DNA of 64,000 nt. Origin: an uncultured Actinomycetes bacterium. Lineage in GTDB: Bacteria; Actinomycetota; Actinomycetes; Nanopelagicales; Nanopelagicaceae. Position numbers and translations under genes: made by a program. The notes below the pieces were generated by a model, which made no database searches, was not told where the DNA came from, and was given only the letters and a program-made list of their open reading frames with translations. Below are positions 29,073 to 48,567 of this stretch, piece by piece; position 1 is the stretch's first letter; the number at the start of each line of letters is the position of its first letter. The stretch lies in NCBI GenBank assembly GCA_903863015.1, contig CAIPAI010000032.1:1-64000 (forward strand), in the 5' to 3' direction.

Positions 29073-31960
29073 TGGAGAAGAGGCGAGCCACCGAGCGGGG
29101 ATTCTTTGCGCGCTCCGGTTTTCTAGATACCACCCAGGCCGAAATTTTGATGGGCCTCTTGCCTTCGCGAGAAGTCTTTGCCGATGCCCTTTCACATGCT
29201 GCAGATCCGGACCAGGCGCTCGCACTCCTTGTGCGTTTGATCGAGGCCGATCAGGCGGTGGCACAGACTTTGTTAGTTGATGCTTTGCTGACAGATCGCA
29301 TCGTTGCGCTTCTCGGGGCCAGCGCCTCTTTGGGAGAGCATCTCATTCGCTTCCCCGGAGACATCACCCTGCTGCTGGGTGAAGATCTAGCTTCAGCGCC
29401 CCAACTCTTCCTCCCGGCGTCAACGTGGTTGGAGAGTGCTAATGCGTTACGCGTAAATTACCGGCGCGCACTTCTTCAAATAGCGGCAGCTGATCTCACA
29501 GGTACTCGCGGTTTTGAAGCGACCTCGCTGGCGCTCTCAGATTTGGCGGATCGAGCTCTTGAGGCCGCATTACTCATTGCGCGCCAAGAGACCGGAATTT
29601 CGGATACTGAACTAGCGATCATTGCGATGGGTAAGTGTGGGGCGCGGGAGCTGAATTACATTTCAGATGTCGATGTCATCTTCGTTGCCGACGATGTTGA
29701 TGGCGAGCAATTGCGCAATGCCACCAAACTGGCCACTCAGGTGATGCGTGCCTGCCACGAAACCACGAGCGAAGGTTCGCTCTGGGAAGTTGACGCAGGA
29801 TTACGTCCCGAAGGAAAAGATGGTCCGCTCGTGCGAACCATTGAAAGTCACACGGCTTACTACGAGCGCTGGGCGCAACCTTGGGAATTTCAGGCGCTGT
29901 TAAAGGCACGTACCGCTGCTGGTAGCAAGGAGGTCGGTGCTCGATTTATTGCCATGGCCTCTATCGGTACGTGGAGTGTGGCAGAGAAGCCCACCTTTGT
30001 TGATGACGTCCGAAAGATGCGCAAACGTGTAGAAGAGCATATTCCGAGTAAGGATGCAGATCGACATCTCAAACTAGGTGTAGGCGGCTTGCGTGATGTG
30101 GAGTTTGCAGTTCAACTTTTGCAACTAGTTCACGGCAAGGCCGACGAAGATCTTCGCGTGCAGAGCACCATGTCGGCGCTGCGTGCACTGAGTGCTGCTG
30201 GTTATGTAGGGCGCGAGGACGGCGCTGCGTTACTTGAAGCCTATGGCTGGATGCGAACGCTCGAACATCGCATTCAACTCAACCAACTCAAGCGTAGTCA
30301 TCTCATTCCAGAAGCTGAGGGGGACCTCAGGCGGATCGCTCGGTCGATGGCGTACGAGTCGAGTGCTGAGCTCCTCCAGCAGTGGCGCGAACGACGATCA
30401 CTGGTCCGCAGTATTCATGAGAAGCTCTTCTTTAGGCCGCTTCTCTCGGCAGTGGCGCGGTTAGCGGCAGATGAACAACGCCTCACCCCAGAAGCTGCAC
30501 AAGCGCGACTCTTAGCTCTCGGTTATAGAGATCCAGTAGGAGCCCTAGCGCATATTCAAGCGCTCACATCAGGAGTATCTCGCCGCGCTGCCATTCAACG
30601 TCAATTGCTTCCGGCGATGTTGGAGTGGTTCACCCAGGGTCCCGATCCAGATGCCGGGCTCTTTGCCTTTAGACAAGTTTCGGATGCGCTCGGTGATACG
30701 CCTTGGTATTTGCGGATGTTGCGCGATAGTGGAGCCACCGCCCAACGACTTGCGCTGGTGCTCTCCTCGTCGCGTTATGCATCTGAACTCATCTTGCGGG
30801 CGCCAGAGGCGACCGCCATGCTAGATGACGATGGCGATCTAGCGCCCCGCGGTGTGGAGCAATTAACTCTTGAATCACTCAAAGTCGTTCGTCGCCAAGA
30901 CGAAAGTGATAAGGCCATTGAATCCGTCCGTGCGGTACGGCGGCGCGAACTCTTTCGTACTGCAGTAGCCGACTTGCTTGGCACGCTCTCGGTTGCCGAA
31001 GTGGGTGACGCGCTCAGTGATGTTGCGGGCGCCACTTTAGAAGCAGCGTGCGACGCTGCGAGCCGCGCATACATCAGGGAACACGGACCGCTCACCATAA
31101 AGTTCTCTGTTATCGCGCTTGGTCGTCTCGGTGGAAACGAGATGAGTTACCAGAGTGATGCAGATGTGCTCTTCGTGCATGAGTACCTTCCAGGAACCGA
31201 TGAGAAGGTGGGGACCGATACGGCGCATTGGATCGCGGGGGAGATGCGACGGCTCACCTCGCTTCCGAATCCTGAGCCACCGTTGATTATTGATCCCGAT
31301 CTGCGTCCCGACGGAAAACAAGGTCCGTTGGTTCGGTCTCTCTCGGCTTATGCGCACTATTACGCAGAGCAGGCCCTGCTGTGGGAGCGACAAGCGCTGC
31401 TCCGCGCCCGGCCCATTGCTGGCGACAAAGAACTCGGAGAACGTTTCACAGCGCTCATCGATTTTTATAGATATCCCGTCTCGGGTATCGGAATGAATGA
31501 CTTTCGCGAGATGCGTCGCCTGAAGGCTCGTGTGGAATCCGAACGCTTGCCGAGAGGTGCAGATAAGTCGCTCCATCTCAAGCTAGGTCCTGGCGGCTTA
31601 TCCGATGTCGAATGGATGGCTCAGTACTTGCAATTAAAATATGCAGGAAAGCATCCACGGCTACGTATCACCGGGACTCTCGAAGTACTCAATCGTGCGG
31701 TGGCGGCAAATTTACTGGCGATTGCCGATGCAGCGACGCTCTCCGATGCGTGGTTACTGGCAACTCGTATCCGTAATGCAGTCATGTTGGTAACTGCTAG
31801 ACACTCTGATGAAGTGCCGAAAGCTGCCGAAAGTGCACGCGCGGTCTCGCAGGTGCTTGGTTTTGCTTCAGGCGAAGCGCTCATGGAAGAGTGGCGCCGG
31901 CAGAGTCGGCGAGCACGCGCAGTCTTTGAGCGGCTCTTTTATGAGGATGGCAATGAGTAA
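29072..31960 (+). CDS. glnE: Bifunctional glutamine synthetase adenylyltransferase / adenylyl-removing enzyme
   Basis: GlnE adenylylates and de-adenylylates glutamine synthetase in response to nitrogen status. The 962-aa length is normal. Two nucleotidyltransferase domains are visible: the N-terminal one with MGKCGARELNYISDVDVIFV (about 190-209) and the C-terminal one with LGRLGGNEMSYQSDADVLFV (about 686-705). Each is followed by a helical domain with an LKLGVGGLRDVEF or LKLGPGGLSDVEW motif. ATG overlaps the era stop; TTG and GTG codons directly upstream are alternatives. Direct era-glnE adjacency is less usual than the earlier order. The glnE end overlaps the transporter start by 8 bp. Confidence 0.95.
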   Translation: MEKRRATERGFFARSGFLDTTQAEILMGLLPSREVFADALSHAADPDQALALLVRLIEADQAVAQTLLVDALLTDRIVALLGASASLGEHLIRFPGDITLLLGEDLASAPQLFLPASTWLESANALRVNYRRALLQIAAADLTGTRGFEATSLALSDLADRALEAALLIARQETGISDTELAIIAMGKCGARELNYISDVDVIFVADDVDGEQLRNATKLATQVMRACHETTSEGSLWEVDAGLRPEGKDGPLVRTIESHTAYYERWAQPWEFQALLKARTAAGSKEVGARFIAMASIGTWSVAEKPTFVDDVRKMRKRVEEHIPSKDADRHLKLGVGGLRDVEFAVQLLQLVHGKADEDLRVQSTMSALRALSAAGYVGREDGAALLEAYGWMRTLEHRIQLNQLKRSHLIPEAEGDLRRIARSMAYESSAELLQQWRERRSLVRSIHEKLFFRPLLSAVARLAADEQRLTPEAAQARLLALGYRDPVGALAHIQALTSGVSRRAAIQRQLLPAMLEWFTQGPDPDAGLFAFRQVSDALGDTPWYLRMLRDSGATAQRLALVLSSSRYASELILRAPEATAMLDDDGDLAPRGVEQLTLESLKVVRRQDESDKAIESVRAVRRRELFRTAVADLLGTLSVAEVGDALSDVAGATLEAACDAASRAYIREHGPLTIKFSVIALGRLGGNEMSYQSDADVLFVHEYLPGTDEKVGTDTAHWIAGEMRRLTSLPNPEPPLIIDPDLRPDGKQGPLVRSLSAYAHYYAEQALLWERQALLRARPIAGDKELGERFTALIDFYRYPVSGIGMNDFREMRRLKARVESERLPRGADKSLHLKLGPGGLSDVEWMAQYLQLKYAGKHPRLRITGTLEVLNRAVAANLLAIADAATLSDAWLLATRIRNAVMLVTARHSDEVPKAAESARAVSQVLGFASGEALMEEWRRQSRRARAVFERLFYEDGNE

Positions 31961-33209
31961 CGATTCGAGCATGTACCAGGGGAGTGTCGATCGGCCCGTA
32001 CTTAAGGCCATCGTCGCGAATGTTCGCGATTTCCCCCGCGCACTCTCCTGGAGTGCGCTGCTTTCGGGACTTTTGATTGTTCTCATCTCGTGTACCGGCC
32101 CGGTGGCGATGTTGGTGCAAGCAGCGCACGCTGGTCATCTCACCGATACGCAAACTGCTACCTGGCTCTGGTCGTGCTGGATTGGGTCGGGACTCTTTGG
32201 TCTTTATCTTTCGCTGAGATTGCGGATGCCGATGATCGGCGCCTGGTCCACACCATCAATCGCACTCTTACTCACGGGTCTTGCTGAACATTCATTAAAA
32301 GATGCCGTAGGCGCTTACTTCATTGCAGCAGTGGTCATCATCTTGATCGGCGTCACTGGTATCTTCAAGAAGATTTTGATGCTCGCGCCGCCACCCGTCA
32401 TTATGGCGATGCTTGCGGGTGTGCTCTTTGAATTTGGCGTCGGAGTTTTTAAAGTGCTTCCGGATCAACCTGGAATCGTTATCGCAATGGTGGCCGGATA
32501 CTTCGTCGCCCGTAGATTTGGTTGGCGAGCTCCGGTCATTGCAAGTGTTATCGCAGGTCTTGCGGTAGCTTTTGCACTTCGCGAAGTGCACTCGCCTCAT
32601 CTGCATGTGGCACTTGCGAAACCTGAGTGGGTCAATCCCACTTTCTCGGTCAGTGCGCTCATCACGCTTGCGATCCCACTTATTCTTCTCACGCTTACTT
32701 CGCAGTACGCCCCTGGTATGGCCGTTATGACCTCTTACGGATACGAGGCGCCCATCAATCGTTCGCTGGTCACCGGTGGCTTGATTTCACTTGCCGGCGC
32801 TGGATTTGTGGGAAGTGGGGTGAACTCTGCAGCTATCACCGCAGCTATCGGTGCGGGCGACCATGCAGAGCCAGATAAGACGCGTCGATATACCGCCGGT
32901 GTAGTCTGCGGCATTGCTTACGTCATTGTCGGACTGCTCGGTTCCACGCTCCTCGGTCTCTTCGGTGCCCTCCCGGCGCCGCTACTCGCAGCCCTTGCTG
33001 GTCTAGGTATTTTGCCGGCCATCGGCAATAGCGCACACGAGGCGATGGCAAACCCGGAGTATCGCGAAGCTGCGCTCATTACTCTGCTCGTCACCGTCTC
33101 CGGGATCCATCCCCTCCAACTCGGTTCACCCTTCTGGGGGCTGCTTGCGGGCATCGCCACGCACCAAGTGGTGGCATTTGGACGGCGCCGAGGTGATCAG
33201 GTAAGGTAG
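31953..33209 (+). CDS. benE: BenE-family benzoate/H+ symporter-like transporter
   Basis: The product of about 418 residues has 11 or 12 hydrophobic segments. The early SALLSGLLIVLISCTGPVAML stretch, the APPPVIMAMLAGVLF stretch and GSGVNSAAITAAIGAGDHAEPD near residue 280 match BenE-type benzoate transporters of the nucleobase/ascorbate transporter fold. It would import benzoate or a related aromatic acid. I chose the ATG preceded by GAGGATGG, which overlaps the glnE end. It is the first gene of the accessory catabolic region. Its stop codon lies inside a perfect inverted repeat. Confidence 0.82.
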   Translation: MSNDSSMYQGSVDRPVLKAIVANVRDFPRALSWSALLSGLLIVLISCTGPVAMLVQAAHAGHLTDTQTATWLWSCWIGSGLFGLYLSLRLRMPMIGAWSTPSIALLLTGLAEHSLKDAVGAYFIAAVVIILIGVTGIFKKILMLAPPPVIMAMLAGVLFEFGVGVFKVLPDQPGIVIAMVAGYFVARRFGWRAPVIASVIAGLAVAFALREVHSPHLHVALAKPEWVNPTFSVSALITLAIPLILLTLTSQYAPGMAVMTSYGYEAPINRSLVTGGLISLAGAGFVGSGVNSAAITAAIGAGDHAEPDKTRRYTAGVVCGIAYVIVGLLGSTLLGLFGALPAPLLAALAGLGILPAIGNSAHEAMANPEYREAALITLLVTVSGIHPLQLGSPFWGLLAGIATHQVVAFGRRRGDQVR

Positions 33210-33225: not shown

Positions 33226-33238
33226 TTCAGGAGGAAGC

Positions 33239-34024
33239 ATGAGAGCGGCGGCGATCTACCTCAGCCATGGCGCTCCGCCGCTCGTCGATGATCCGTACTG
33301 GCCCACCCAATTGCGCACGTGGACCGATCACATGGATGCGCGCTCCGGAAAGCCTTCAGCCATTTTGGTAGTGAGTGCGCATTGGGAATCGGCGCCGTTG
33401 ACCATTGGAGCGATCGAACAGGGTGTGCCGCTCTTTTATGACTTCTACGGTTTCCCGCAGAAGTATTACCAAGTGCAATACAAGTCGCCGGGCGCTGCTG
33501 CACTCGCTGCAGAAGTAAGTGCCCTCATGCCCGACCATGAGGAGATCGCCCATCAACCCGATCGGGGTTTGGACCACGGCGCTTATGTTCCCTTAACGGT
33601 GATGTATCCGAATGCAGACGTTCCGGTATTACAAATTTCCATGCCCACTCTGGATCCTGCCAAACTCTTTGAACTCGGTCGCAGGCTTGCACCTCTGCGC
33701 GATCAAGGTGTGATGATCATGGCTTCTGGCTTTACCACTCATGGTCTTCCGTATATCGACTTTTCAAATCCACACAGCAAGGCACCAACGTGGTCGGTGG
33801 AATTTGATGCCTGGATGACCGAGGCGCTTTCGCGTGGAGATATAGACACGTTAATGGATTTCAAACATCGAGCGCCAGGAATGCCTTATGCGCATCCAAC
33901 GACTGAACACTTCGCACCACTCTTTGTTGCACTCGGCGCATCGATTGAGCCCACCGCAAATCCCAGCACTCAAGTTGATGGATATTGGTATGGCCTCTCG
34001 AAGCGATCTTTACAACTCGCTTAA
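33239..34024 (+). CDS. DODA/LigB-type extradiol ring-cleavage dioxygenase
   Basis: The 261-aa protein belongs to the class III extradiol dioxygenase superfamily, 4,5-DOPA dioxygenase branch (YgiD-like). Probable metal ligands are His in YLSHGAPPLVDD (residue 10), VVSAHWESAPL (around 47) and the DHGAYVPL motif (around 115), with a C-terminal His in PYAHPTTEHFAPLFVALGA. It should open a catecholic ring with O2. An excellent AGGAGG site precedes the ATG, and a 20-bp inverted repeat upstream suggests dedicated regulation. It is separate from the HpaD dioxygenase at 45.4 kb; the substrate is unknown. Confidence 0.85.
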   Translation: MRAAAIYLSHGAPPLVDDPYWPTQLRTWTDHMDARSGKPSAILVVSAHWESAPLTIGAIEQGVPLFYDFYGFPQKYYQVQYKSPGAAALAAEVSALMPDHEEIAHQPDRGLDHGAYVPLTVMYPNADVPVLQISMPTLDPAKLFELGRRLAPLRDQGVMIMASGFTTHGLPYIDFSNPHSKAPTWSVEFDAWMTEALSRGDIDTLMDFKHRAPGMPYAHPTTEHFAPLFVALGASIEPTANPSTQVDGYWYGLSKRSLQLA

Positions 34025-34031: not shown

Positions 34032-35459
34032 TCATGACCGTAGGGCTTTAGTTAATTCCACAATCACTGCCAACGTTTCATGGACGTCTGCTTCGGTGGT
34101 GCGGAAATTCGTAAAGCACGGACGTAGCCATACCTCTCCGTCGATGACGGCTTGGCTGAGATAGACGCGGCCATCAGATTGAATTGCGTCGCAGAGGGCA
34201 GTGTTGAAAGCATTCAGGTCTGCCACTTCCTCTGGTACTGCTCTTAGCGGCACGATTGAAAGAGCGGGACGGAAAGGCATTACGGCGAATCCAGGAGTTG
34301 CTGTCGCGAGGTCGTGTAGCAATTGTGCCTGTTGTAGATTTTGTGAAATAGCAGACCTAAATTCATCAGCGCCATGAACCATGAACGCTAACCAGAGTTT
34401 CAGGGCGCGCAGTGGCCTGGAGTACTCCAATGTGTAATCGACAGCATTCAGTAAGGCTCCATCGTGCGGGATATACGCCTCTTCGTGGCTAAATACCGAG
34501 ACCAACGAGTTTCGATCACGCACCATGACAGCGCTGCATGCCTTTGGAACATACATCCACTTGTGCGCATCAATGCTGATCGAGTCGGCTCGTGCAAGGC
34601 CGGAGAAAGCTGATGCTCGCTCTTGGGTGGCTGCGGCTGGCAGTCCATAGGCACCGTCAATATGAAGCCAGATTCCGAACTCTTCGCACACATCGGCAAT
34701 TGCATCGATGGGATCGACGGCTCCGATGAGGGTAGTGCCACCCGTTGCAACTACTGCGATGGGCGTCAATCCCTCGGAAATATCTGAAGTAATCATCTCG
34801 CGGAGCGCAGCAGGCGCGAGGCGTCGCTCGCTATCGATCGGGACGCTGCGCACATTGCGCGATCCAATTCCCAGTAGTTCTATTCCGCGCCTCACTGAGT
34901 AATGCGCATCTGCAGAACAGTAAACGACAGGTTTGGCGTTTCCCAGTCCGTTGAACCGACTTCCAGGGATGGCCCTCTCGCGGGCGGCCACTAGTGCGGT
35001 GATATTGCTGATGGTGCCACCGCTGGTAAATGCCCCACCCCCAGAGGGGAAGCCGAGAAACTCGCCGAGCCATTGCAATGTTTGATGATCCATGAGGCTT
35101 GCTGCTCTGGCATCAAGAGCTAAGTTGACGTCGTAAGAGTGGGCAAGCAGATCGGCAAGCGCGCCAATTTCCAATCCACTTGAACCAATGTAGGCCAAGT
35201 AGCGCGGGCGTGATTGCGCAAGTGAAGTATCAAGCACTTCGGCAGCCAGATCTAGCCCCGCCATAGCGCTCATGCCTGATTTGGGAAGCGGTTCGTGCAA
35301 GCGCGTAATCAGTGACTCGCTAGGTACGTGTTCTTCCTCGCGTGCGTGGTCAAAGTCTTTCCAAGCGCGCAAGACGATTTGAGCGGCATGATGGAGAGCT
35401 GCTTCCCGATCTGCTCCGAGGGTAAGTGGATTGCCACGTTTTGACTCGGAGTTACTCAC
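34032..35459 (-). CDS. PLP-dependent group II amino-acid decarboxylase (aromatic-L-amino-acid-decarboxylase-like)
   Basis: This 475-aa enzyme should decarboxylate an amino acid to its amine with pyridoxal phosphate. Lys300 in SIDAHKWMYVPK is the Schiff-base lysine; the substrate-side HIDGAYG with the PLP-contacting Asp and ATGGTTLIGAVDP just before it are conserved, as is FTSGGTISNITAL near residues 140-152. Resemblance is to aromatic amino acid, histidine and tyrosine decarboxylases; the exact substrate cannot be read. It is downstream of an APC permease in a two-gene operon (6-bp gap), a layout common for decarboxylase/transporter pairs. Confidence 0.85.
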   Translation of the reverse strand: MSNSESKRGNPLTLGADREAALHHAAQIVLRAWKDFDHAREEEHVPSESLITRLHEPLPKSGMSAMAGLDLAAEVLDTSLAQSRPRYLAYIGSSGLEIGALADLLAHSYDVNLALDARAASLMDHQTLQWLGEFLGFPSGGGAFTSGGTISNITALVAARERAIPGSRFNGLGNAKPVVYCSADAHYSVRRGIELLGIGSRNVRSVPIDSERRLAPAALREMITSDISEGLTPIAVVATGGTTLIGAVDPIDAIADVCEEFGIWLHIDGAYGLPAAATQERASAFSGLARADSISIDAHKWMYVPKACSAVMVRDRNSLVSVFSHEEAYIPHDGALLNAVDYTLEYSRPLRALKLWLAFMVHGADEFRSAISQNLQQAQLLHDLATATPGFAVMPFRPALSIVPLRAVPEEVADLNAFNTALCDAIQSDGRVYLSQAVIDGEVWLRPCFTNFRTTEADVHETLAVIVELTKALRS

Positions 35460-35465: not shown

Positions 35466-36965
35466 TTAGTTAACCAGATCCTTGAGCATCTCTTCATTTT
35501 CGTTTCGGCGAATAGTTGAAACAACGACGCCTACGACAAAAATAACGAAGGGCAGGAGGATGAGGAACCATCCCAGAGGACTGAGCCCCCAAGATTGCGT
35601 CGTTGGGTCTACGCCCTTAGCTACGGTGCCAGCGAGTAAGCCAAAGCGTGACATGAGGAGGTACTCCCCGAGACCCAAGCCAATGATGGCGAGAATAGGA
35701 GCGATGAGAGTGTTCCACGGACGAGTATCTTCCTTGGTTTTCTGGAAGTAACGAATCACCGCGAGGGAAACCAATATCTCGACTAAGACCATGGCTACTA
35801 CAGAGAGACCGCTAAACCAGTAGAAGAGATTAAGGACTGGATCGAGACCGCGAACCGCAAAAATGATCACGACAAGTGCGCCTACGGCTGCCGTTGAGTA
35901 GGTGGCATTGCTTGGAGCGCCTTGCTTATTTACCTTGGCGAGTGCTGAAGGCAGAACTCCGGCGCGACCCATGGAGAAGAAGTAACGTGCGATGGAGTTG
36001 TGGAATGCCAGGAGTCCAGCGAAGAGACTTGAGATAACTAACCAACTCATTAAAGTAGCGAGCCACGATCCCACATATTGATCCGCCATCGTGAAGAGTA
36101 CGTTGGCTGGATTCACCAATGGCACATCTCCGACGCTGGAGTATTCAACGACTTTATCCACTACCTTGCTCGCGCCCATGCCATTGACCATTGCGAGAGT
36201 GGTTATGACAAAGAGCCCAGTAATCAAAAGGATGGAGATATAAGTGGCGCGTGGTACGACGCGCTTGGGATCTTTTGATTCCTCACCATAAATTGCAGAA
36301 GCTTCAAATCCGATGAAGGAGGCGAAAGCGAAGGAGAGCGCGATACCGGCAGTGCCATTGAGGCCACCGGCAAAAATGTTGGATGGGTTAAATGAAGCAC
36401 CCAGATTAAAATTCTCAGGCCCACCTTGTACCAAGATTGCAATTGCTAGAACAAAAAGTGAGAGAACTTCGGCGATCATGAAAACACCGAGCACCTTCGC
36501 TCCTACGTCGACTGCGCGGAGTGAAAGAAGAGTAACGACGGCCCAAGCGATGAGTGTCCATGCCCACCAAGGCATATCAAGGCCGAGAGATTCTTTCATC
36601 TGCCCTGCAGCGACAGCGCCAAAGAATCCGAAGATGGCAACTTGCACCGCGATATATGCGAGCAGGGAGACGAATGCGGCACCCACACCAGCTCGAGTGC
36701 CGAGTCCGCGACCAACGTAGGCAAAGAATGCGCCCGTGTTCGTAACGCGATGGCTCATGGCCGCGTATCCCACGCTGAAAAGTAGAAGAGCGAGGCCGAC
36801 CGCGAGGTAGGCACCAGGAACGGCAGCTCCATCACCGAGCACCACAGCTACGGGAACTGCGCCAGTCATGCCGACCAGTGGAGAGGCGGCAGCAACGACG
36901 AAGAAGACCACGCCCCAGACGCCAAGTCGATTCTTCTTTAAAGTTTCTCCCTGAGTTTGTGACAT
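35466..36965 (-). CDS. APC-superfamily amino acid/amine permease
   Basis: The 499-aa protein has about 12 hydrophobic segments. The N-terminal GVWGVVFFVVAAASPLVGMTG stretch and the GFEASAIYGEESKDPKRVVPRA motif after helix 6 are typical of amino acid-polyamine-organocation permeases. I prefer the ATG preceded by AAGGAGA over the GTG one codon upstream. Being immediately upstream of the decarboxylase, it probably imports the amino acid or exchanges it for the amine; glutamine-synthetase-like and amidotransferase genes nearby suggest amine handling. Confidence 0.88.
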   Translation of the reverse strand: MSQTQGETLKKNRLGVWGVVFFVVAAASPLVGMTGAVPVAVVLGDGAAVPGAYLAVGLALLLFSVGYAAMSHRVTNTGAFFAYVGRGLGTRAGVGAAFVSLLAYIAVQVAIFGFFGAVAAGQMKESLGLDMPWWAWTLIAWAVVTLLSLRAVDVGAKVLGVFMIAEVLSLFVLAIAILVQGGPENFNLGASFNPSNIFAGGLNGTAGIALSFAFASFIGFEASAIYGEESKDPKRVVPRATYISILLITGLFVITTLAMVNGMGASKVVDKVVEYSSVGDVPLVNPANVLFTMADQYVGSWLATLMSWLVISSLFAGLLAFHNSIARYFFSMGRAGVLPSALAKVNKQGAPSNATYSTAAVGALVVIIFAVRGLDPVLNLFYWFSGLSVVAMVLVEILVSLAVIRYFQKTKEDTRPWNTLIAPILAIIGLGLGEYLLMSRFGLLAGTVAKGVDPTTQSWGLSPLGWFLILLPFVIFVVGVVVSTIRRNENEEMLKDLVN

Positions 36966-37063
36966 CACTTCTCCTTGCGTGGGAACGTATGGATACGAAC
37001 GATGCGGTAAGCATCTCTCAGGGAATTGGCCGGGTCAAGCAAATAAGTAACTTTTTTCTCAGG

Positions 37064-37069
37064 TATTGT
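37064..37069 (+). promoter_or_regulatory. Predicted -10 element upstream of the acetoacetate-decarboxylase-like gene
   Basis: TATTGT ends 7 nt before the ATG at 37077, so the transcript would be leaderless or nearly so. No Shine-Dalgarno fits this start. A -35 box is not clear. Confidence 0.35.
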
Positions 37070-37076
37070 GAAGGCT

Positions 37077-41237: not shown

Positions 41238-41267
41238 AGTTGAAGTAACGTTTACTCGAACTCAACT
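41238..41267. terminator. Possible bidirectional terminator between convergent P450 genes
   Basis: AGTTGA/TCAACT encloses AGTAA-CGT-TTACT, giving an interrupted hairpin spanning the 17-bp gap and the end of the second P450 gene. There is no T-run, so this is a weak candidate. Confidence 0.25.
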
Positions 41268-42517
41268 CGTACAGGCAATCGCTTAATGCCATGGACGAAA
41301 TTGCTGCGCAAGTAATCCGTCTCGCCGATACGCTCCATATGTTTTACTCGAGGCAGTAGTTGCGTAAACATAATCTGCATCTCAAGCCTGGCGAGTGCAT
41401 TGCCCATGCACATATGTGGTCCACCACGGCCAAATGCCATGTGTTCGTTGGGCTTACGGGTCACATCGAAGGTATATGGATTGGTGAAAGTCTCCGGATC
41501 ACGGTTGCCGGATGCAAACCAGACCACTACTTTCTCGCCCTTCTTAATCTTCTTCCCATGCATCTCCACATCGCGCGTTGCGGTGCGACGGAAGTGATAG
41601 ACCGGGCTTGCTTGGCGCAGGAATTCTTCGATGGCCCAAGGGATGAGTTCTGGCTTGGCCTTGAGAAGCGCCATTTGCTCAGGATGATCTATAAGCGCGT
41701 TCATCGAGTGAGTGATGGCGTGACGAGTCGTTTCGTTACCTGCAATAACGATGAGCAGGAAGTAGTTCCGGAAGTCGCGATCGTCTAGCGCTAAACCATC
41801 GGTGGGAACGTTGTGTGCAAGTTGGGAGACCAAATCGTTCTCACTCTTACCGCGACGTGCTTCTCGTAACTTGAATCCGTAATCAAAAACTTCCAATGCG
41901 GCAGGGGATCGGAAGGGGAGGAGGCGGTACTTCTCGCTCTCTGCGCTATCGAGGAGTACGTCGGTGTGTTCTGGGTCGGTGTTACCCACCATGCGATTTC
42001 CCCAGTTAATCAGTTGGCCGGTATCCGTATCTGGCACTCCGAGCATGCGTGCTAATACGCGAATCGGGAAATCAGCGCTTACCTCTTTCACGAACTCGAA
42101 TTGATTCTTTGAGAATGCTGCGTCGAGAGTGGTCTTAGTCAGTGCCTCTAGAAAGTTTGTATACCCTGCGACGGATTTTGGCGTGAAGTTATCCATCATC
42201 AATTTGCGGAGGACGCGATGACGGTTCCCGTCTGTTTCTAGCATGGAGCGACGCACCTCGAGTTGTTCTTCGTCTAGCTCCTCAAGATTGGTGCCCTGCT
42301 CACTATTAAACGTTTCGGTATCGCGCAGCACTGACACGATGTCGGCATACCGCGTGAGTGACCAGAAGCCTGCTCCACCTTCTTCGTTGCTCCAATGGCA
42401 TGGGTCTTCGCTGCGCATCTGCTCGAAGAGGGACCACGGAGCGCCGTTCTCAAATAAACTCATATCTGCAAGTGATACATCGCGAAGGTTGCGTGATGTT
42501 CCAGTGCTTGCCGCCAT
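41252..42517 (-). CDS. Cytochrome P450 (CYP124/125/142-like)
   Basis: The 421-aa P450 has the I-helix motif AGNETTR near residues 251-257, ExxR in WAIEEFLRQASP, and the heme loop AFGRGGPHMCMG with Cys370. The loop has one more residue than the textbook FGxGxHxCxG, a form I associate with mycobacterial CYP124/125-type enzymes that oxidise steroid side chains, terpenoids or branched lipids. It is convergent with the GcoA-like P450 and divergent from a MarR gene. The ferredoxin and reductase at 47.2-48.6 kb may serve both P450s. Substrate unknown. Confidence 0.87.
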   Translation of the reverse strand: MAASTGTSRNLRDVSLADMSLFENGAPWSLFEQMRSEDPCHWSNEEGGAGFWSLTRYADIVSVLRDTETFNSEQGTNLEELDEEQLEVRRSMLETDGNRHRVLRKLMMDNFTPKSVAGYTNFLEALTKTTLDAAFSKNQFEFVKEVSADFPIRVLARMLGVPDTDTGQLINWGNRMVGNTDPEHTDVLLDSAESEKYRLLPFRSPAALEVFDYGFKLREARRGKSENDLVSQLAHNVPTDGLALDDRDFRNYFLLIVIAGNETTRHAITHSMNALIDHPEQMALLKAKPELIPWAIEEFLRQASPVYHFRRTATRDVEMHGKKIKKGEKVVVWFASGNRDPETFTNPYTFDVTRKPNEHMAFGRGGPHMCMGNALARLEMQIMFTQLLPRVKHMERIGETDYLRSNFVHGIKRLPVRVEFE

Positions 42518-42639: not shown

Positions 42640-43137
42640 ATGGCCGGTGCACATACGCTCAGCGAGACCGAGCGCGCAGTTCAGGAGCGCCTCGACAGTT
42701 TGCCGATCGACTTCGAGGCGATGGCTGCTGTTTCTAATCTCTTCCGCGCCGCAAACGCCGTAAGAAATCACCTCGAGCGCACCGCGCTGGCTCCTAGCGG
42801 TATGACATGGACTGGCTTTGTAGTTCTCTGGGTGGTCTGGATCTGGTCACCGATCGAGACGCGGGACATTGCATCTGAAGCGGGAATCTCGAAGGCCACA
42901 CTGACTGGTGTGCTAAATACGCTTGAGGGCCGCGGTTGGCTTGAGCGTCAACGGAGTTCAGAAGACGGACGCCTCATGGTGGTCACTCTGACGCCGGCGG
43001 GGTCAAAGTTAATGAAGAAGCTCTTCCCGAAGTTCAATGATCAAGAAATTGCCACCGTGTCGCAGGTGCCTCGTGCCGAGTTAGAGAAATTCACTGCCAA
43101 CTTGCGCTCACTTACTCGATCAGTTGAAGGAAGTTAG
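42640..43137 (+). CDS. MarR-family transcriptional regulator
   Basis: A 165-aa winged-helix protein. The recognition helix region reads IASEAGISKATLTGVLNTLEGR followed by the wing RQRSSEDGRLMVVTLTPAG, the typical MarR pattern with the DxR-type DGR. GGGGGAG precedes the ATG; the open frame continues upstream, but that part overlaps the divergent P450 gene. It probably senses an aromatic ligand and controls the P450 and hpa genes. The palindrome at 43922 is a candidate target. The stop overlaps the convergent hydrolase stop by 4 bp. Confidence 0.88.
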   Translation: MAGAHTLSETERAVQERLDSLPIDFEAMAAVSNLFRAANAVRNHLERTALAPSGMTWTGFVVLWVVWIWSPIETRDIASEAGISKATLTGVLNTLEGRGWLERQRSSEDGRLMVVTLTPAGSKLMKKLFPKFNDQEIATVSQVPRAELEKFTANLRSLTRSVEGS

Positions 43138-43853
43138 CCGATCCGTTCGCGGAACTTCTTAAATATTGAAAGTTGATCGGAATCAATCTCCCATCGATCC
43201 TCCGGATGCCATTGCACGGCGACCCCGTTCGCTCCATCTACCGTGAGGGCTTCGATGCAACCGTCGGTGGAGTAGGCAACGGCGCGGACACCACTTCCTA
43301 ATTTCGCTACTGATTGATGGTGGTAGCACGAGCTTGTCACCACTGGCAGTTCGAGGCCGAATTCGTCCCATGCTTTTTCGAAGACCACATCATGCGTCAG
43401 ATGACGATGTGGCGGTTCGATGTGCTGATTCAAGGTGCCACCAAGAGCGACGTTAAGTAGATGCATTCCTCGGCAGAGCGCGAGGAAGGGGATGTCTTCA
43501 GCGAGCACGTGCTTCATCAGGGCCAGATCGTTTGCGTCCTGGACATCATCGATGTCGTAGAGGTGCTCAGAGTTGGGTTGCTCGCCATAGGTCGCAGGAT
43601 TGATGTCTCCGCCACCGGCAAAGAGCACCCCGTCGAAACCTTTTAACCGCTCGTGCCAATCGGAGGAATCCTGGGTGGGCAGGAGCGTGACCGGATCCAA
43701 GCCCGCAGCCCAAAGCCCTTCGAGGAGCATTCGAGCAGAGACCACGCCTCGAAACCGGAGCGCGCTCGCGCTCTCTGTGAAGCGTCCTAGGAGGGCGACC
43801 TTGGGTCGAACGCCAGTTGAATTCTCGGATGCTGGGCTCATCTGGCTCCTCAT
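43134..43853 (-). CDS. Gamma-glutamyl-gamma-aminobutyrate hydrolase family protein (PuuD-like)
   Basis: The 239-aa class I amidotransferase-fold hydrolase has the GVLFAGGGDINPATYGE motif near residues 75-91, the nucleophile elbow LALCRGMHLLN with Cys near 124, and the catalytic VQWHPED near 215-221. These are the marks of PuuD/peptidase C26. PuuD releases GABA from gamma-glutamyl-GABA in putrescine breakdown. With the GS-like gene 4 kb away it may complete a gamma-glutamylation route. An alternative start at 43841 is possible. It diverges from hpaE over 87 bp containing a perfect palindrome. Confidence 0.88.
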   Translation of the reverse strand: MRSQMSPASENSTGVRPKVALLGRFTESASALRFRGVVSARMLLEGLWAAGLDPVTLLPTQDSSDWHERLKGFDGVLFAGGGDINPATYGEQPNSEHLYDIDDVQDANDLALMKHVLAEDIPFLALCRGMHLLNVALGGTLNQHIEPPHRHLTHDVVFEKAWDEFGLELPVVTSSCYHHQSVAKLGSGVRAVAYSTDGCIEALTVDGANGVAVQWHPEDRWEIDSDQLSIFKKFRERIG

Positions 43854-43921
43854 TGGGCTCTTCAGGCTCGAATTCGCGTACTTTGGGCTACCTAAAAAGA
43901 ATATCTGGTGGCATCCTATAC

Positions 43922-43937
43922 CGTTAGGATCCTAACG
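43922..43937. promoter_or_regulatory. Perfect 16-bp palindrome upstream of hpaE, candidate operator
   Basis: CGTTAGGATCCTAACG is a perfect palindrome in the intergenic region between the PuuD-like gene and hpaE, ending 4 bp before the hpaE ATG. TATACC at 43918-43923 could be an overlapping -10 box. Binding there would block hpaE transcription or translation start. MarR (42640) or GntR (63824) proteins are candidate binders. Confidence 0.55.
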
Positions 43938-43940
43938 ATT

Positions 43941-45419
43941 ATGGGAATGAGGGAGATGTCCAAGATCGTCGTTGCGGGAGTATCTGTTGATACCGGGCAT
44001 TTCATCGGTGGTCAGCGGGTCTACTCTGCGCAGACTTTTTCAGATCACTCGCCGATTGATGGCTCCTTTCTGGGCGAAATCTCGCGCGGTGGGGCAGCAG
44101 AAATCGATCTCGCTGTTTCGGCCGCTCGCGCGGCATTCCCGGGTTGGGCAAAGACTCCTCGGGTCGAGCGCGCACGCATCATGCACGCCATCGCAGATGG
44201 CGTTGAAGCTCGCTTAGAAGAGTTAGCCCAAGTTGAGACCCACGATAACGGAGCACTCATCCGTTCACATCGTCGTGGCGTGATGCCTCGAGTTGCTCAC
44301 AATTTCCGCTTCTTCGCTGATTGGTTACTTAACGAGTTGCATCACGATCCATTCGAAACACGTGGGCATACCAACGTAGTTTCTTGGGATCCATCTGGTG
44401 TGGCCGCACTCATCACTCCGTGGAATGCGCCACTTATGCTGGCAAGTTGGAAGATTGCACCTGCGCTCGCATCAGGTGACACCGTGATTTTGAAACCTGC
44501 TGAGTGGACGCCGCTGAGCGCTTCTCTCCTCTGCGACATTGCGAAAGAAGCAGGTTTGCCAGATGGTGTTTTCAATGTGGTGCAAGGTTTCGGAAATGAG
44601 GCAGGAGCCGCGCTCGTGGCCCATCCGGGAATTTCACGGATCTCATTTACCGGCTCGGTACCCACTGCAAAACTCGTTGCTCGAGCCGCAGCAGATAATT
44701 TGACGCCATGTTCGCTTGAGTTAGGCGGTAAGAGCCCGCTTATCGTCATGGACGATGCTGATTTGGAACTTGCAGTCACTCTCGCCGTTGAGCAGTACGA
44801 CAATGCTGGGCAAGTCTGCTTAGCTGGAACGCGCCTACTGGTGCACGAAAAGATTCGTGAAGATTTTCTGACCGGCTTTAAAGAGCGCGTCTCCAAGATT
44901 GTGCAAGGTGATCCTCGTGTTGATGGAACTGATATTGGGCCGCAGATTCACGAGAAACAATTCACCAAAATTCTTGGCTACATTAATCGCGCGAAAGCAG
45001 CAGGTGCTGACGTAGAAGTAGGCGGGGGAGCGAACGAAAACCTAGGTGGTCTCTATATCCACCCGACGTTGATTTCACACGCCGCTCCCGGCAGTGAAAT
45101 TCTCACTGACGAAGTGTTTGGCCCAGTATTAACGCTGCAAACATTTTCAACTGACGAAGAAGCCGTATCGATGGCCAATGGAACTGAGTTTGGGCTCGCC
45201 GCTGTACTCGTTTCAGGTAATCGCGAAAGAGCAGAGCGCATCTCCGAGCAGTTGGTTGCCGGCACTACCTGGGTCAATTGTTTCTTCGTGCGCGATCTCC
45301 GTGCTCCATTCGGTGGGGCACGTAAGTCTGGTGTGGGTCGCGAAGGCGGTTCCTGGTCTTTTGATTTTTATTCTGAACTAAAAAATACAGTGTTCTCACC
45401 AAACGGCTGGAGGGATTGA
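43941..45419 (+). CDS. hpaE: Aldehyde dehydrogenase, 5-carboxymethyl-2-hydroxymuconate-semialdehyde dehydrogenase (HpaE-like)
   Basis: HpaE oxidises the ring-cleavage aldehyde of homoprotocatechuate with NAD. The protein of about 492 residues has the catalytic Cys in DNAGQVCLAGTRLLVH, the Glu motif LELGGKSP, and the Rossmann stretch ALASGDTVILKPAEWTPLSA. The C-terminal VRDLRAPFGGARKSGVGREGGSWSF closely follows E. coli HpaE. The start may be 43941 or 43956; neither has a well-spaced ribosome-binding site. hpaD begins right after the stop, so hpaE-hpaD-hpaG form one operon. Confidence 0.9.
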   Translation: MGMREMSKIVVAGVSVDTGHFIGGQRVYSAQTFSDHSPIDGSFLGEISRGGAAEIDLAVSAARAAFPGWAKTPRVERARIMHAIADGVEARLEELAQVETHDNGALIRSHRRGVMPRVAHNFRFFADWLLNELHHDPFETRGHTNVVSWDPSGVAALITPWNAPLMLASWKIAPALASGDTVILKPAEWTPLSASLLCDIAKEAGLPDGVFNVVQGFGNEAGAALVAHPGISRISFTGSVPTAKLVARAAADNLTPCSLELGGKSPLIVMDDADLELAVTLAVEQYDNAGQVCLAGTRLLVHEKIREDFLTGFKERVSKIVQGDPRVDGTDIGPQIHEKQFTKILGYINRAKAAGADVEVGGGANENLGGLYIHPTLISHAAPGSEILTDEVFGPVLTLQTFSTDEEAVSMANGTEFGLAAVLVSGNRERAERISEQLVAGTTWVNCFFVRDLRAPFGGARKSGVGREGGSWSFDFYSELKNTVFSPNGWRD

Positions 45420-45420
45420 G

Positions 45421-46320
45421 ATGGGCGAGGTAGTTGGAGCGGGGCTTTTGGCACATGTACCTACGATCATGTTGCCGAAAGAAGTGCGTTACGAACTCAA
45501 CGAAGGGAAAGAGATTTCTCTTGTTACGGGTCTGGAGCGTCTACGTAAAGAAGTCTTTGAAACCGCCGATTACGACACCGTTGTCGTACTTGACTCTCAC
45601 TGGGCTACGACCGTCGAGTTTGTGACCACGTCGCACGAGCGCCGTACCGGCAAGTACACCTCTGAGGAATTACCTCGTGGCATGTCTTCGGTCCCTTATG
45701 ATTTTAAGGGCGATCCTGAACTAGCTATCGAAATCAGCAAGTATGCCGAGAAGCACGGCACGTGGATTACGCCTATCGACGACCCTCACCTACCGACGTT
45801 TTACGCGACGTTGAATCTTTGGAAGTACCTAGGTGAAGGTTTAGACAAGCAATGGGTCAGTATCGGTTGCTGCCAAACTGCCGAGACTGAAGATAACCTG
45901 CGTCTCGGTCGCGCACTCGGAGATGCCATCGATAAGTTGGATCGCAAGGTGCTATTGCTCGCTTCGGGTGCGCTTTCACACACTTTCTATCCGCTCCAAG
46001 AATTGCGCAAACACGAAGCAAGCGACATCTCACACATCTTCACGCCGGAAGCCCGTGAAGCTGATCTTGAGCGGATCGAATGGTTTAAGAGCGGGGATCA
46101 CGATCAAGTACTGCGAACGATGCCGGAGTTTTATAAGTACAAGCCAGAGGCGCGATTTGGTCACTATCTCATGATGATTGGTGCGCTTGGAGAGAATGAG
46201 TGCACCGCACCAGGGCGCCTCTTCAGCGAGTATGAGAACTCAATTGGAACCGGACAGGTACATATCTGGTTTGATCAACCGGAAGCTGGCTGGACCGCAA
46301 AGCTGAATGCCAGTGTCTAA
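45421..46320 (+). CDS. hpaD: 3,4-dihydroxyphenylacetate 2,3-dioxygenase (HpaD, class III extradiol type)
   Basis: HpaD opens the homoprotocatechuate ring between C2 and C3 using Fe(II) and O2. The 299-aa protein aligns with E. coli HpaD as I recall it: AHVPTI near residues 11-16, VVLDSHWATT near 56-65 with a metal His, KYTSEELPRGM, the FKGDPELA stretch, LLASGALSHTF near 179-189 and the C-terminal SIGTGQVHIWF. The family assignment is strong. It lies between hpaE and hpaG in one operon, and its end overlaps the hpaG start by 14 bp. Confidence 0.92.
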   Translation: MGEVVGAGLLAHVPTIMLPKEVRYELNEGKEISLVTGLERLRKEVFETADYDTVVVLDSHWATTVEFVTTSHERRTGKYTSEELPRGMSSVPYDFKGDPELAIEISKYAEKHGTWITPIDDPHLPTFYATLNLWKYLGEGLDKQWVSIGCCQTAETEDNLRLGRALGDAIDKLDRKVLLLASGALSHTFYPLQELRKHEASDISHIFTPEAREADLERIEWFKSGDHDQVLRTMPEFYKYKPEARFGHYLMMIGALGENECTAPGRLFSEYENSIGTGQVHIWFDQPEAGWTAKLNASV

Positions 46321-47200
46321 GAATGTAGAGACACGGAGAATTCTCCTTGATGGGTATCCGGCTGAGGTAGTGCGCCACGGGGACGTTCTCGTAGCCGGAG
46401 ACGGAAGAGAAGTAGCCATTGCAGATGCTACGCACTTGGCTCCAGTGGAACCTACCAAAATCATTGCAGTGCATCTGAACTTTCAGAGCCGTACTGACGA
46501 GTTCATGACCAAGCTCCCTCCTGCGCCTACTTACTTCCACAAACCCATCACGGCATTGAATTCCCACCATGGTGATGTGGTTCGCCCGCAGGGATGTAAG
46601 TGGCTCAATTATGAAGGCGAGATCGTTATTGTCATCGGACGAACTTGTCGCAACATTTCTCCCAAGGATGCCGCCGATTACATTGCCGGGTACACCATCG
46701 GCAATGATTACGGTTTGCACGATTTTAGAGATACCGATGCCGGTTCAATGCTGCGTGTAAAGGGGAGCGACACTCTTGCTCCGGTTGGTCCTGGCTTAGT
46801 TCGTAATTGGGATTTCAGAAATAAGCAGATCCGTACATTGGTAAATGGAGTTGTGAAGCAAGATGACAACACCAAAAATATGGAGTGGGACATGCACTAC
46901 TTGGTCGCTGACATCGCGCGTACCATCACCCTTGTTCCCGGCGACATCCTCTTCTCGGGTACGCCAGCATTTTCACGTCCTGTGCAACCAGGCGATTTAG
47001 TCGAAGTCGAAGTCGAAGGCTTGGGAATGCTCAGTAATCGAATCGTAGAAGGCCCAACGCCGATCCGCACAGATGTGGGCGCGCAACCCACGGAGAGTGA
47101 AGAGGTTATCTCCACAGCCCTTGGCGGGGATTGGGAATTCCGCGGTATACGTACGCCATCTAAAGATCTCTACCCATCTCGAATTGAGGAGAAGAAGTGA
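46307..47200 (+). CDS. hpaG: Fumarylacetoacetate hydrolase family protein (HpaG-like isomerase/decarboxylase)
   Basis: HpaG converts the 5-oxo-pent-3-ene-tricarboxylate intermediate by decarboxylation and isomerisation. The 297-aa protein has an N-terminal 60-residue part and the FAH core: YFHKPITALNSHHGDVVRP, the metal Glu region NYEGEIVIVIGR, GYTIGNDYGLHDFRDTDAG and DILFSGTPAFSRPVQPGD. Within an operon with hpaE and hpaD the HpaG role is most likely, though FAH-family hydratases look similar. Hydratase, isomerase and aldolase genes of the lower pathway (hpaH, hpaF, hpaI) are not recognised in the window. Confidence 0.85.
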   Translation: MPVSKNVETRRILLDGYPAEVVRHGDVLVAGDGREVAIADATHLAPVEPTKIIAVHLNFQSRTDEFMTKLPPAPTYFHKPITALNSHHGDVVRPQGCKWLNYEGEIVIVIGRTCRNISPKDAADYIAGYTIGNDYGLHDFRDTDAGSMLRVKGSDTLAPVGPGLVRNWDFRNKQIRTLVNGVVKQDDNTKNMEWDMHYLVADIARTITLVPGDILFSGTPAFSRPVQPGDLVEVEVEGLGMLSNRIVEGPTPIRTDVGAQPTESEEVISTALGGDWEFRGIRTPSKDLYPSRIEEKK

Positions 47201-47382: not shown

Positions 47383-47388
47383 TCGTTC

Positions 47389-48567
47389 TTGAAGGTTCTT
47401 ATCGTTGGTGCCGGGCTGGCGGGATTACGGACAGCAGAGTCCCTCCGTGGCGCGGGCTTTGCTGGCGAGATCACGCTCGTGGGGGATGAGCCTTACTTTC
47501 CGTATAACCGGCCACCACTTTCAAAAGATGCACTTGCTAACGGGCTAGAAATAGCGGACCTTGAGTTCAAGCGACGTGAAAGCGTCGCAGACGTAACCTG
47601 GATATTTGATGATTCTGCAACCAGCACTGATTATCAACAGCGGGGTGTGCTTCTTAAATCTGGGCGTCTCGAGTCTTTCGACGTCTTGGTTGCGGCTACA
47701 GGTATTCGCCCTCGCACGCTCAACGTTCCTGGTGCTGAGAAGAGCAAGTTTTCGCTCCGTAACTTTGCGGAAGCGCAAGAGCTCCGTACTTCGATGTTGG
47801 GTGTCCAAAGAATTGTGATTGTCGGCGCAGGTTTCATTGGTTGTGAGATTGCGGCGACGGCTCGCAAACTTGGAATTGACGTAGCAGTGGTGGCGGCCGA
47901 TCCAGAGCCGATGTTTCGGCCACTCGGTGCAGAGTTTGGCCATGCCATGAAACATCGCCATGAAGCACATGGCGTGAGCTTTCACATGAACGCGAAAATC
48001 GCGGGGTATCTCGGAGGGGAGAGCGCCACCGGGGTATCTCTGGAGAGTGGCGAAGAAATTCTGGGTGACTTGTTGATCGAGGCCATCGGATCACTTCCCA
48101 ACACTGAATGGTTAGCGGGGGGATCTCTCGATCTCAAAGACGGCGTGCTCGTCGATTCTTCGATGCGTGCCACGGCCCCTAGCGATGTCTCTATTTACGC
48201 TGTAGGTGATGTTGCTCGATATGCATTCGATCTCTTCGATACCACTCCTCGCAGAATTGAACATTGGAATCTCCCTACGGAGACAGGTCGTCGAGCAGGC
48301 AAGTCGATTGCTCATTTTCTTCACACAGGTGAAGTACTTGCCGAGTCGGTTAATTTTGTCCCATCATTTTGGTCGGATCAATATGAAGATAATCTGCAAT
48401 CTTTTGGGATGCCCGGCATCGCTGACTCTATAAACGTGGTTGAAGGCGATCTCATGGGCGATTGTGTGGTCGAGTATTTGCGTGGCAATAAAGTTGTGGG
48501 AGTCGTCGGTGTAAATACCAGCGCGAAATTAGCGCCGTATCGGAAGAGTTTTCAAGAAACTAATTGA
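47389..48567 (+). CDS. FAD-dependent ferredoxin reductase
   Basis: The 392-aa protein belongs to the BenC/HcaD/putidaredoxin-reductase family. The FAD Rossmann motif IVGAGLAGLRTAESLR is at residues 4-19, PYNRPPLSK near 42-50, the NAD-binding VIVGAGFIGCEIAATARKLG near 143-162, and the YAVGDVARY motif near 271-279. It passes electrons from NAD(P)H to the ferredoxin encoded just upstream. The start is TTG. Its end overlaps the convergent TauE gene by 8 bp. Confidence 0.92.
   Translation: MKVLIVGAGLAGLRTAESLRGAGFAGEITLVGDEPYFPYNRPPLSKDALANGLEIADLEFKRRESVADVTWIFDDSATSTDYQQRGVLLKSGRLESFDVLVAATGIRPRTLNVPGAEKSKFSLRNFAEAQELRTSMLGVQRIVIVGAGFIGCEIAATARKLGIDVAVVAADPEPMFRPLGAEFGHAMKHRHEAHGVSFHMNAKIAGYLGGESATGVSLESGEEILGDLLIEAIGSLPNTEWLAGGSLDLKDGVLVDSSMRATAPSDVSIYAVGDVARYAFDLFDTTPRRIEHWNLPTETGRRAGKSIAHFLHTGEVLAESVNFVPSFWSDQYEDNLQSFGMPGIADSINVVEGDLMGDCVVEYLRGNKVVGVVGVNTSAKLAPYRKSFQETN

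Follow-up and report, generated by a model that had tools for sequence, protein, structure and literature searches.

What does a GcoA-like cytochrome P450 do beside genes of the homoprotocatechuate meta-cleavage type in a lake actinobacterium? The question is raised by the window, a stretch of 64,000 nucleotides (C32:1-64000, contig CAIPAI010000032.1 of assembly GCA_903863015.1) from an uncultured member of the Nanopelagicaceae that belongs to a freshwater (lake) lineage of actinobacteria. The source genome (G000) has 1.94 Mb and is 99.5% complete, in a family mostly of small genomes. A first, sequence-only reading had proposed a catabolic island in which a P450 acts on free homovanillate or 4-hydroxyphenylacetate and homoprotocatechuate is then cleaved. 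All the genes it named are there: a BenE-type importer, the GcoA-like P450 (P450_1), a second P450 (P450_2), a MarR regulator, HpaE-, HpaD- and HpaG-like enzymes, a ferredoxin and its reductase (Table 1). The island holds seven more genes that it had left out and that alter the island's meaning: a YgiD-like gene, a pyridoxal phosphate (PLP) decarboxylase, an APC permease, an MppR-like enzyme, a glutamine synthetase (GS)-like ligase, and two enzymes of glutamine-amidotransferase fold (GATase and the C26 amidase). We lean slightly towards reading the island as a lake form of a cluster that is widespread in actinobacteria, many relatives from soil included, and that would serve the catabolism of tyramine-type amines under a gamma-glutamyl shield.

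Conservation of the cluster in relatives

Relatives of the HpaD-like protein were found in 29 of the 394 genomes of a class-level sample (two draws treated as one, own genome included), the others at 58-74% identity. The linkage that the sequence-only reading had staked itself on is conserved, and one recurrent cluster appears in 20-kb stretches from these genomes. An HpaD alignment scan (E up to 1e-3) returned at least 586 stretches that encode a relative, of which the best 80 were used; among these 80, carriers belong to Streptomyces, Kitasatospora, Actinomadura, Nonomuraea, Aurantimicrobium, Mycolicibacterium, Rhodococcus and Aeromicrobium.

Gene content was tallied in those 47 of the 80 loci that exceed 20 kb, two of which come from the window's genus; the 33 of 20 kb or less were left out. 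The per-gene identity thresholds ranged from 35% to 60%, some chosen after the tables had been seen, and the flanks were 10 kb. The MppR-, HpaE- and HpaG-like enzymes are each present in 47/47 loci and the GS-like ligase in 46, followed by MarR (41), the C26 amidase and P450_2 (40 each), the APC permease (30, at 35% identity or more), the ferredoxin and the reductase (29 each), the GATase (23) and an LLM oxidoreductase (12). P450_2 and the ferredoxin occur together in 28 loci, P450_2 alone in 12, the ferredoxin alone in one, and neither in six. The GcoA-like P450 is present in two loci, both of the window's genus. Because of these counts (40/47 against 2/47), and because the GcoA-like P450 of a number of other genomes lies on another contig or far from hpaD, P450_2 belongs to the cluster core, with the GcoA-like P450 as an optional front end. 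Neither the decarboxylase nor BenE appeared in any of the 47 loci, but both lie beyond the end of the flanks, in the genus too. Eight class-level clusters have the decarboxylase in cis (50-67% identity).

Could the island be a chance neighbourhood of unrelated catabolic genes? The sulfatase, amidohydrolase and ABC genes downstream would agree with this, as none of the 47 loci outside the genus has them at 40% identity. The core set is instead conserved in Streptomyces, Actinomadura, Nonomuraea, Aurantimicrobium, Mycolicibacterium and Rhodococcus, and partly on a Novosphingobium plasmid, and we regard a chance assembly as barely plausible.

Two variants of the cluster stand out. The Novosphingobium plasmid pABRDHK22 (L196 5753-15870) carries a version with an HpaD-like protein at 61%, an HpaG-like at 75%, an ADC at 55%, a P450_2-like at 41% and a different GS family member (32%). 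The clusters of G364 and G434 adjoin a second set (L076 1323-6300; L079 5674-14555) of GS-like (27-29%), GATase (35-37%), P450 (40-41%) and PuuC-like aldehyde dehydrogenase (ALDH; 55%) genes, perhaps another shielded-amine pathway.

Ligase, ring cleavage and the proposed shield

The GS-like protein falls under the cut-offs of GlnA (310/429 bits), type III (303/470) and PuuA (279/650). All 59 rows of the alignment retain five catalytic columns (Glu, His and Arg). The Glu of the ammonia flap (GYEAP motif), which has its role in glutamine synthetase, is replaced by Leu in 58/59, window included. Glutamyl organic amide synthetases (GoaS) combine the GS fold with an organic amine, in place of ammonia, as acceptor; for such a comparison the protein offers kept GS catalytic columns and a lost flap Glu. 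The two enzymes of glutamine-amidotransferase fold keep their catalytic residues: Cys and His-Pro-Glu are kept in 32/32 relatives of the GATase, and Cys and WHPED in 59/59 relatives of the C26 amidase. The PDB matches of the PLP decarboxylase include DOPA and tyrosine decarboxylases. The use of the ligase on polyamines or ethanolamine was considered and rejected, since it leaves the ligase's presence in 46/47 ring-cleavage loci unexplained.

The HpaE-, HpaD- and HpaG-like proteins all score under their NCBIfam equivalog cut-offs (Table 1). We searched 16 cluster-bearing genomes with profiles for the rest of the Hpa route. HpaF (PF02962) has no match in the source genome or in two other members of its genus (G005 and G020), none in 12/16 and one over the cut-off in 3/16; 14 control genomes have none. 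HpaH (TIGR02312) has no match in the same three genomes and none in 11/16, with 0/16 over the cut-off, and HpaB was not found in 15/16, the three tested genus members included. HpaI-type matches (PF03328) occur in 16/16; the source genome has three, one strong and CitE-like, two weak at about 2e-6. The CitE-like gene (contig position 74675) was tried as HpaI and rejected (112/443 bits). Since HpaF, HpaH and HpaB were not found in most cluster genomes, other enzymes must fill in.

For HpaH and HpaI, the candidate is the MppR-like enzyme, proposed as a hydratase-aldolase. Lys129 and a QGxPK motif, whose Lys we take to be the Schiff-base Lys of MppR/Sbi00515-type aldolase-dehydratases, are kept in 59/59 relatives, the window and both PDB chains (4jm3 and 4zbo, the latter presumably Sbi00515). 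The protein is under the NCBIfam MppR cut-off (171/380 bits). Relatives of MppR have been proposed as the aldolase of a meta pathway in Saccharolobus growing on phenol (Sso1221/1222; available part of PMC7820114).

These results bear on the earlier choice of substrate. The ring cleaved is probably another than homoprotocatechuate, and free homovanillate or 4-hydroxyphenylacetate is not supported as substrate: a GS-like ligase and amidases occur in nearly all clusters, HpaF and HpaH were not found in the genome, and the Hpa-like scores are low. One may still suppose that a P450 turns these free acids into homoprotocatechuate, that an ordinary Hpa route follows and that the GS-like and amidase genes serve another purpose, as the HpaE/D/G-like set and the BenE importer would suggest. 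The absence of BenE from the 47 loci, outside the 10-kb flanks, carries little weight here. A precedent exists on a Rhizobium etli plasmid, where a P450 49% identical to P450_1 is joined to genes annotated as hpaD, hpaE, HpaF and HpaB; the pairing of such a P450 with homoprotocatechuate genes, formerly thought to have no known counterpart, thus has a second, conventional instance. Against this stand the GS-like gene in 46/47 and C26 in 40/47 loci, besides the missing steps and sub-threshold scores already given, and we hold the free-acid route to be quite unlikely. The R. etli island (L198 1-15279) also contains a flavin reductase with its HpaB, class-III aminotransferases, an APH-fold kinase, an APC permease and an ALDH that shares 39% identity with HpaE of the window.

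Under the shielded-amine reading, we infer the substrates, the order of the steps and the retention of the glutamyl group through ring cleavage as follows. The permease would import the amine or its amino acid, from which the decarboxylase would yield the amine, and the GS-like ligase would couple this to the gamma-carboxyl of glutamate. With the ferredoxin and the reductase, P450_1 would strip 3-methoxytyramine-type substrates of their O-methyl group, which leaves as formaldehyde. P450_2 would hydroxylate the monophenol, and gamma-glutamyl-dopamine would result from either reaction. Ring opening by the HpaD-like enzyme, aldehyde oxidation by the HpaE-like one and decarboxylation by the HpaG-like one would follow. 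The MppR-like enzyme would then hydrate and split the 2-oxo-3-enoate into pyruvate and gamma-glutamyl-4-aminobutyraldehyde, which an ALDH and the C26 amidase may convert to 4-aminobutyrate (GABA) and glutamate, as in the Puu route. An aminoethyl side chain, hence tyramine, dopamine or 3-methoxytyramine, is favoured because of the aromatic-type decarboxylase and the GABA-directed partners. Plant phenolic amides contain 3-methoxytyramine. A precedent exists for attaching glutamate to aromatic amines ahead of oxidation (available part of PMC11335346).

The link to the Puu route can be followed in the relatives. Carrying an aminoethyl side chain through the homoprotocatechuate route gives, by carbon count, pyruvate, CO2 and glutamylated 4-aminobutyraldehyde, the substrate of PuuC. 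The count preceded the family assignment of the second ALDH; that this gene lies by C26 in some clusters, and that C26 resembles PuuD, was already known. In both proteins tested, the top NCBIfam family of this ALDH is PuuC (579 and 543 bits; cut-off 850), with HpaE at 479 and 466. It is present in 31/40 complete loci with C26 and in 0/7 without. GABA transaminases over the cut-off (749 and 752 bits; cut-off 639) lie in the cluster stretches of Alpinimonas and a Microbacteriaceae metagenome-assembled genome, and a partial one (520 bits) at the edge of the examined stretch of G243; G138 and G476 also have class-III aminotransferases close to the cluster, which are not GabT.

Two other uses of the ligase have to be weighed. 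Glutamylation might serve only uptake, detoxification or the P450 steps, the shield being cut before ring cleavage as in the aniline and isopropylamine pathways, and dopamine then being turned into homoprotocatechuate by an amine oxidase or transaminase. NpaA1/AtdA1 systems shed their shield at the oxidation step (PMC11335346, in its available part), and the two amidase-type genes, like the class-III aminotransferases of the R. etli island, would agree with such an early loss. No amine oxidase, however, recurs among the unassigned open reading frames (ORFs) of the 58 loci of at least 15 kb (ORFs of at least 150 aa, recurring in at least 4 loci at 30% identity, families judged by eye, with a second pass under looser rules). 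What recurs there are TetR regulators, VanA, ABC transporters, Actinomadura flanking genes and spurious frames. PuuC, C26 and GabT also fit best with a released glutamyl-aminobutyrate unit, and early loss of the shield seems to us rather improbable. Alternatively, the same shield might protect another amine, either a benzylamine such as vanillylamine (with beta-alanine as end product) or a ring amine such as anisidine. No gene reports the side chain directly, and NpaA1-type ligases are broad (available part of PMC11335346); the PuuC-like and GabT partners and the aromatic-type decarboxylase point instead to an aminoethyl side chain, and we consider another amine unlikely.

The P450s, O-demethylation and the balance of evidence

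The likeness of P450_1 to GcoA is borne out. Aligned with GcoA chain 6hqk over 386 columns it is 39.1% identical (6hqk being a variant with Ala at residue 169, so that the wild type would score one identity fewer), and with PDB 8u09 39.8%; membership of a CYP family is set at 40% identity or more to its members. In the pairwise alignment, GcoA residues Phe75, Val241, Gly245, Cys356 (heme) and Phe395 are kept, and position 169 is Ala, the residue found in the majority of CYP255A sequences (available part of PMC6628648). A tree of 28 rows places GcoA and 8u09 together in a clade (100/99) and P450_1 in a separate clade of 17 rows (96/92), some forks being open and several branches long. Sixteen of these 17 rows come from genomes with an hpa meta-cleavage cluster, a classical one in R. 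etli; G347 has its P450 in cis with the cluster, and this P450 groups on the GcoA side (91/82). The loop and cavity of AgcA admit 4-alkyl groups (available part of PMC13101465). In the clade this loop differs from that of GcoA (Gln at the Thr296 column in 15/17 rows and a one-residue gap), a weak sign, since distant rows share the gap and the pairwise alignment puts it at 296. No three-domain reductase of the GcoB type lies beside P450_1, and a separate ferredoxin and reductase are encoded nearby (47197-48567); the rest of the genome was not searched for GcoB. From its kept residues, P450_1 is probably an aryl-O-demethylase. Its use as an N-dealkylase of gamma-glutamyl amides was rejected, the pocket residues being those of an O-demethylase. 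P450_2 keeps the heme Cys and the Glu-Thr-Thr of AGNETT in 51/51 relatives.

The predicted co-occurrence of CYP255-like P450s with hpaD is found. Of the 12 genomes (own genome included) with a P450 at 41% identity or more, a cut that falls in a gap between 42% and 38%, 11 have an HpaD-like gene, against 29/394 overall (hypergeometric 5e-13, ignoring kinship). The 11 genomes span four families and the exception, G259, belongs to a fifth. With a looser set of 18 genomes (P450 at E up to 1e-50), the co-occurrence is 11/18. Beyond the genus, a GcoA-like P450 lies near hpaD in L126 and L129 (46-47% identity, ~4.6 kb), G364 (7.8 kb), G434 (10.7 kb) and G347 (15 kb); in the remaining P450-bearing genomes it is on another contig or far from hpaD.

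The O-demethylation assigned to this P450 from the start agrees with its pocket and with VanA-like, folD and purU neighbours in relatives; free homovanillate as its substrate is not supported. We tallied these neighbours in 122 locus pieces, some genomes contributing two. VanA-like genes occur in 8 (no background control), 7 of them with a VanB-like neighbour, and the one tested has the Pfam VanA_C domain. The gene purU is found in 7, folD in 4 and either of these formaldehyde/formate-handling genes in 9. Among the latter, a demethylase is in cis in G434 and L179, the GcoA-like P450 lies elsewhere in the genome in G448, G455, G469 and G299, and none was recognised in G418, G377 and a Streptomyces canus plasmid. 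The cluster of this plasmid (L197 13672-15122) has a third P450, very close to PDB chain 8q5j (860 bits), with its own ferredoxin and with both folD and purU in the vicinity; G377 holds a copy at 92%.

Several observations weigh against the shielded-amine reading. P450_2 is in only 40/47 loci and its hydroxylation is a guess, the LLM oxidoreductase of 12/47 loci has no place in the scheme, and the decarboxylase is missing from the tallied loci, whose flanks end short of it even in the genus. Without HpaF, the isomerase step has no enzyme assigned. The C26 amidase is far under the PuuD cut-off (53/266 bits), just as the GS-like protein is under that of PuuA, and the residues of the second ammonia-site region of the GS-like proteins are not reliably alignable. 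The genes folD, purU and gabT are common, were found in 4, 7 and 3 of the 122 pieces with nearness that has no background, and lie in some cases 8-9 kb from hpaD. No folD, purU, VanAB or GabT is inside the window, and a PuuC-type ALDH at 55% or more is absent from the window's genus (best 46%, on another contig). The final amidase and ALDH step therefore rests on the relatives; an SSADH-like gene at 58482-60041 is a candidate for the final steps in the window's genus.

Overall, we judge the chances to be even that, across the widespread cluster, glutamate stays on through O-demethylation, hydroxylation, extradiol cleavage and the aldol split before the Puu steps, with an MppR-type enzyme in place of HpaH and HpaI and with interchangeable front ends (P450_2, GcoA-like P450, VanAB, decarboxylase) that widen the range of substrates.

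Layout of the island and comparison with known systems

The island starts at the stop codon of glnE, which benE overlaps, and extends at least to the ferredoxin reductase (Table 1). Leaving aside the YgiD-like gene, the whole block runs collinearly in G005, in G020 and, as far as its 8.8-kb contig reaches, in a third genus member (G032). The stop codon of the GATase gene overlaps the start of P450_1 as ATGA, a junction shared by all three. The YgiD-like gene is not at this place in G005 and G020, which reflects a recent gain, or a loss in those two.

Table 1. Genes and sites of the island, with window coordinates and supporting matches
Feature	Position	Strand	Evidence
BenE-type aromatic acid/H+ symporter	31953..33209	+	PF03594 386.7 bits; kept in G005, G020
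YgiD-like LigB (4,5-DOPA-dioxygenase-like) enzyme, probably accessory	33239..34024	+	NF007914 154.8 bits, cut-off 233
Group-II amino acid decarboxylase (PLP), proposed to make the amine from Tyr/DOPA	34032..35459	-	PF00282 203 bits
APC-family amine/amino-acid permease	35466..36968	-	PF13520 94 bits
ADC/MppR-like enzyme, proposed hydratase-aldolase	37068..37886	+	best PDB MppR 4jm3 154 bits; 4zbo 133 bits
GS-like gamma-glutamyl-amide ligase (putative)	37883..39211	-	PF00120 340 bits
Class-I glutamine amidotransferase-fold hydrolase (GATase)	39340..40044	+	PF00117 46 bits
GcoA-like P450 (P450_1), proposed aryl-O-demethylase	40041..41234	+	GcoA chains at ~1e-78
Second P450 (P450_2), CYP125/124/268-like, proposed ring hydroxylase	41252..42517	-	40/47 loci
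MarR regulator	42640..43137	+	PF01047 53.8 bits
Peptidase C26 / PuuD-like amidase	43134..43853	-	PF07722 137 bits
Palindrome CGTTAGGATCCTAACG, probable MarR operator of hpaE promoter	43922..43937	.	one copy in window; core in three other genus genomes
HpaE-like semialdehyde dehydrogenase	43947..45419	+	TIGR02299 508 bits, cut-off 638
HpaD-like type II extradiol dioxygenase (LigB)	45421..46320	+	TIGR02298 138 bits, cut-off 316
HpaG-like decarboxylase/isomerase, single FAA-hydrolase domain	46307..47200	+	TIGR02303 196 bits, cut-off 276; best PDB 1gtt
CxxHxxC...CP ferredoxin, 61 aa	47197..47382	+	
Ferredoxin reductase (Pyr_redox_2 + Reductase_C)	47389..48567	+	

The palindromic operator that had been noted is a perfect 16-bp palindrome (CGTTAGGATCCTAACG) upstream of hpaE, on which the MarR protein encoded nearby may act. 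The window has one copy, against 0.15 expected with up to 3 mismatches allowed, and the idea of a site repeated across the island was rejected on this single copy. The 14-bp core lies upstream of hpaE in three other genomes of the genus; the hpaE promoters of most relatives have other palindromes or none.

Directly downstream (48560-52516) are genes for a TauE/SafE exporter, an arylsulfatase-like protein and an amidohydrolase, collinear in G005 and G020; this group might supply the cluster by setting free aryl sulfates or phenolic amides. The downstream genes for an ABC transporter and an LLM protein are likewise collinear in both genomes. The LLM gene (56134-57069) encodes an F420-type oxidoreductase (TIGR03619), the 12 homologues tallied above being at 50% identity or more. 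About 8-12 kb past the window on the same contig (L205 9967-13515), a row of ORFs that look by eye thiolase-like and acyl-CoA-dehydrogenase-like accompanies a CitE-like gene.

If the proposed pathway is right, a function is found for a cluster of many actinobacteria (80 loci examined, from at least 586 stretches), and the presence of a GS-like ligase beside ring-cleavage genes in streptomycetes and lake actinobacteria is explained. GcoA-like demethylases would have a natural role on shielded methoxytyramine rather than on guaiacol from lignin, and the MppR fold would gain a place in catabolism. Cultured carriers such as Aurantimicrobium minutum and Streptomyces species have the cluster, which makes the reading directly testable there. 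The component parts are of known kinds and their combination looks new: in the titles and abstract openings of the open-access literature searched, PDB 8q5j and 8u09 included among the subjects, we found nothing on bacterial catabolism via gamma-glutamyl-tyramine or -dopamine, or on this cluster, a weak negative given that subscription papers were mostly outside its scope.

Each part can be set beside a known system. P450_1 resembles the CYP255A aryl-O-demethylases GcoA, AgcA and SyoA in its 39.1% identity to GcoA and in its kept pocket and heme Cys (available parts of PMC6628648 and PMC6021390), and differs in its sister clade and in a separate ferredoxin and reductase instead of GcoB. With the HpaDEFGHI pathway the window shares HpaD-, HpaE- and HpaG-like enzymes in one operon; it departs from it in sub-equivalog scores, in HpaF, HpaH and HpaB not found in the genome and in the MppR-like enzyme of 47/47 loci. 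MppR and Sbi00515 are the best PDB matches of this enzyme (4jm3 and 4zbo), with Lys and QGxPK kept, and the window's version would act in the direction of cleavage, a use also put forward for Sso1221/1222 (available part of PMC7820114).

For the shield itself, the Puu putrescine pathway (PuuA-B-C-D) offers the same GS-like ligase, C26 amidase and APC permease, joined in relatives by a PuuC-type ALDH and GabT. It differs in its PuuB-type oxidase, of which no recurring counterpart was seen in the 58-locus ORF check; a ring-cleavage module is there instead. In the glutamylation of aniline and 1-naphthylamine (AtdA1, NpaA1), a GS-like ligase and a GATase-like hydrolase likewise stand at the start of aromatic amine oxidation (available part of PMC11335346), whereas the window has P450s in place of a Rieske dioxygenase and its shield is proposed to persist through ring cleavage. 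Finally, the 2-aminophenol locus of the ARO microcompartment is, like the present cluster, an actinobacterial meta-cleavage locus for an aminated aromatic (available part of PMC10470539), from which the window's cluster is set apart in that no shell protein was noticed in it.

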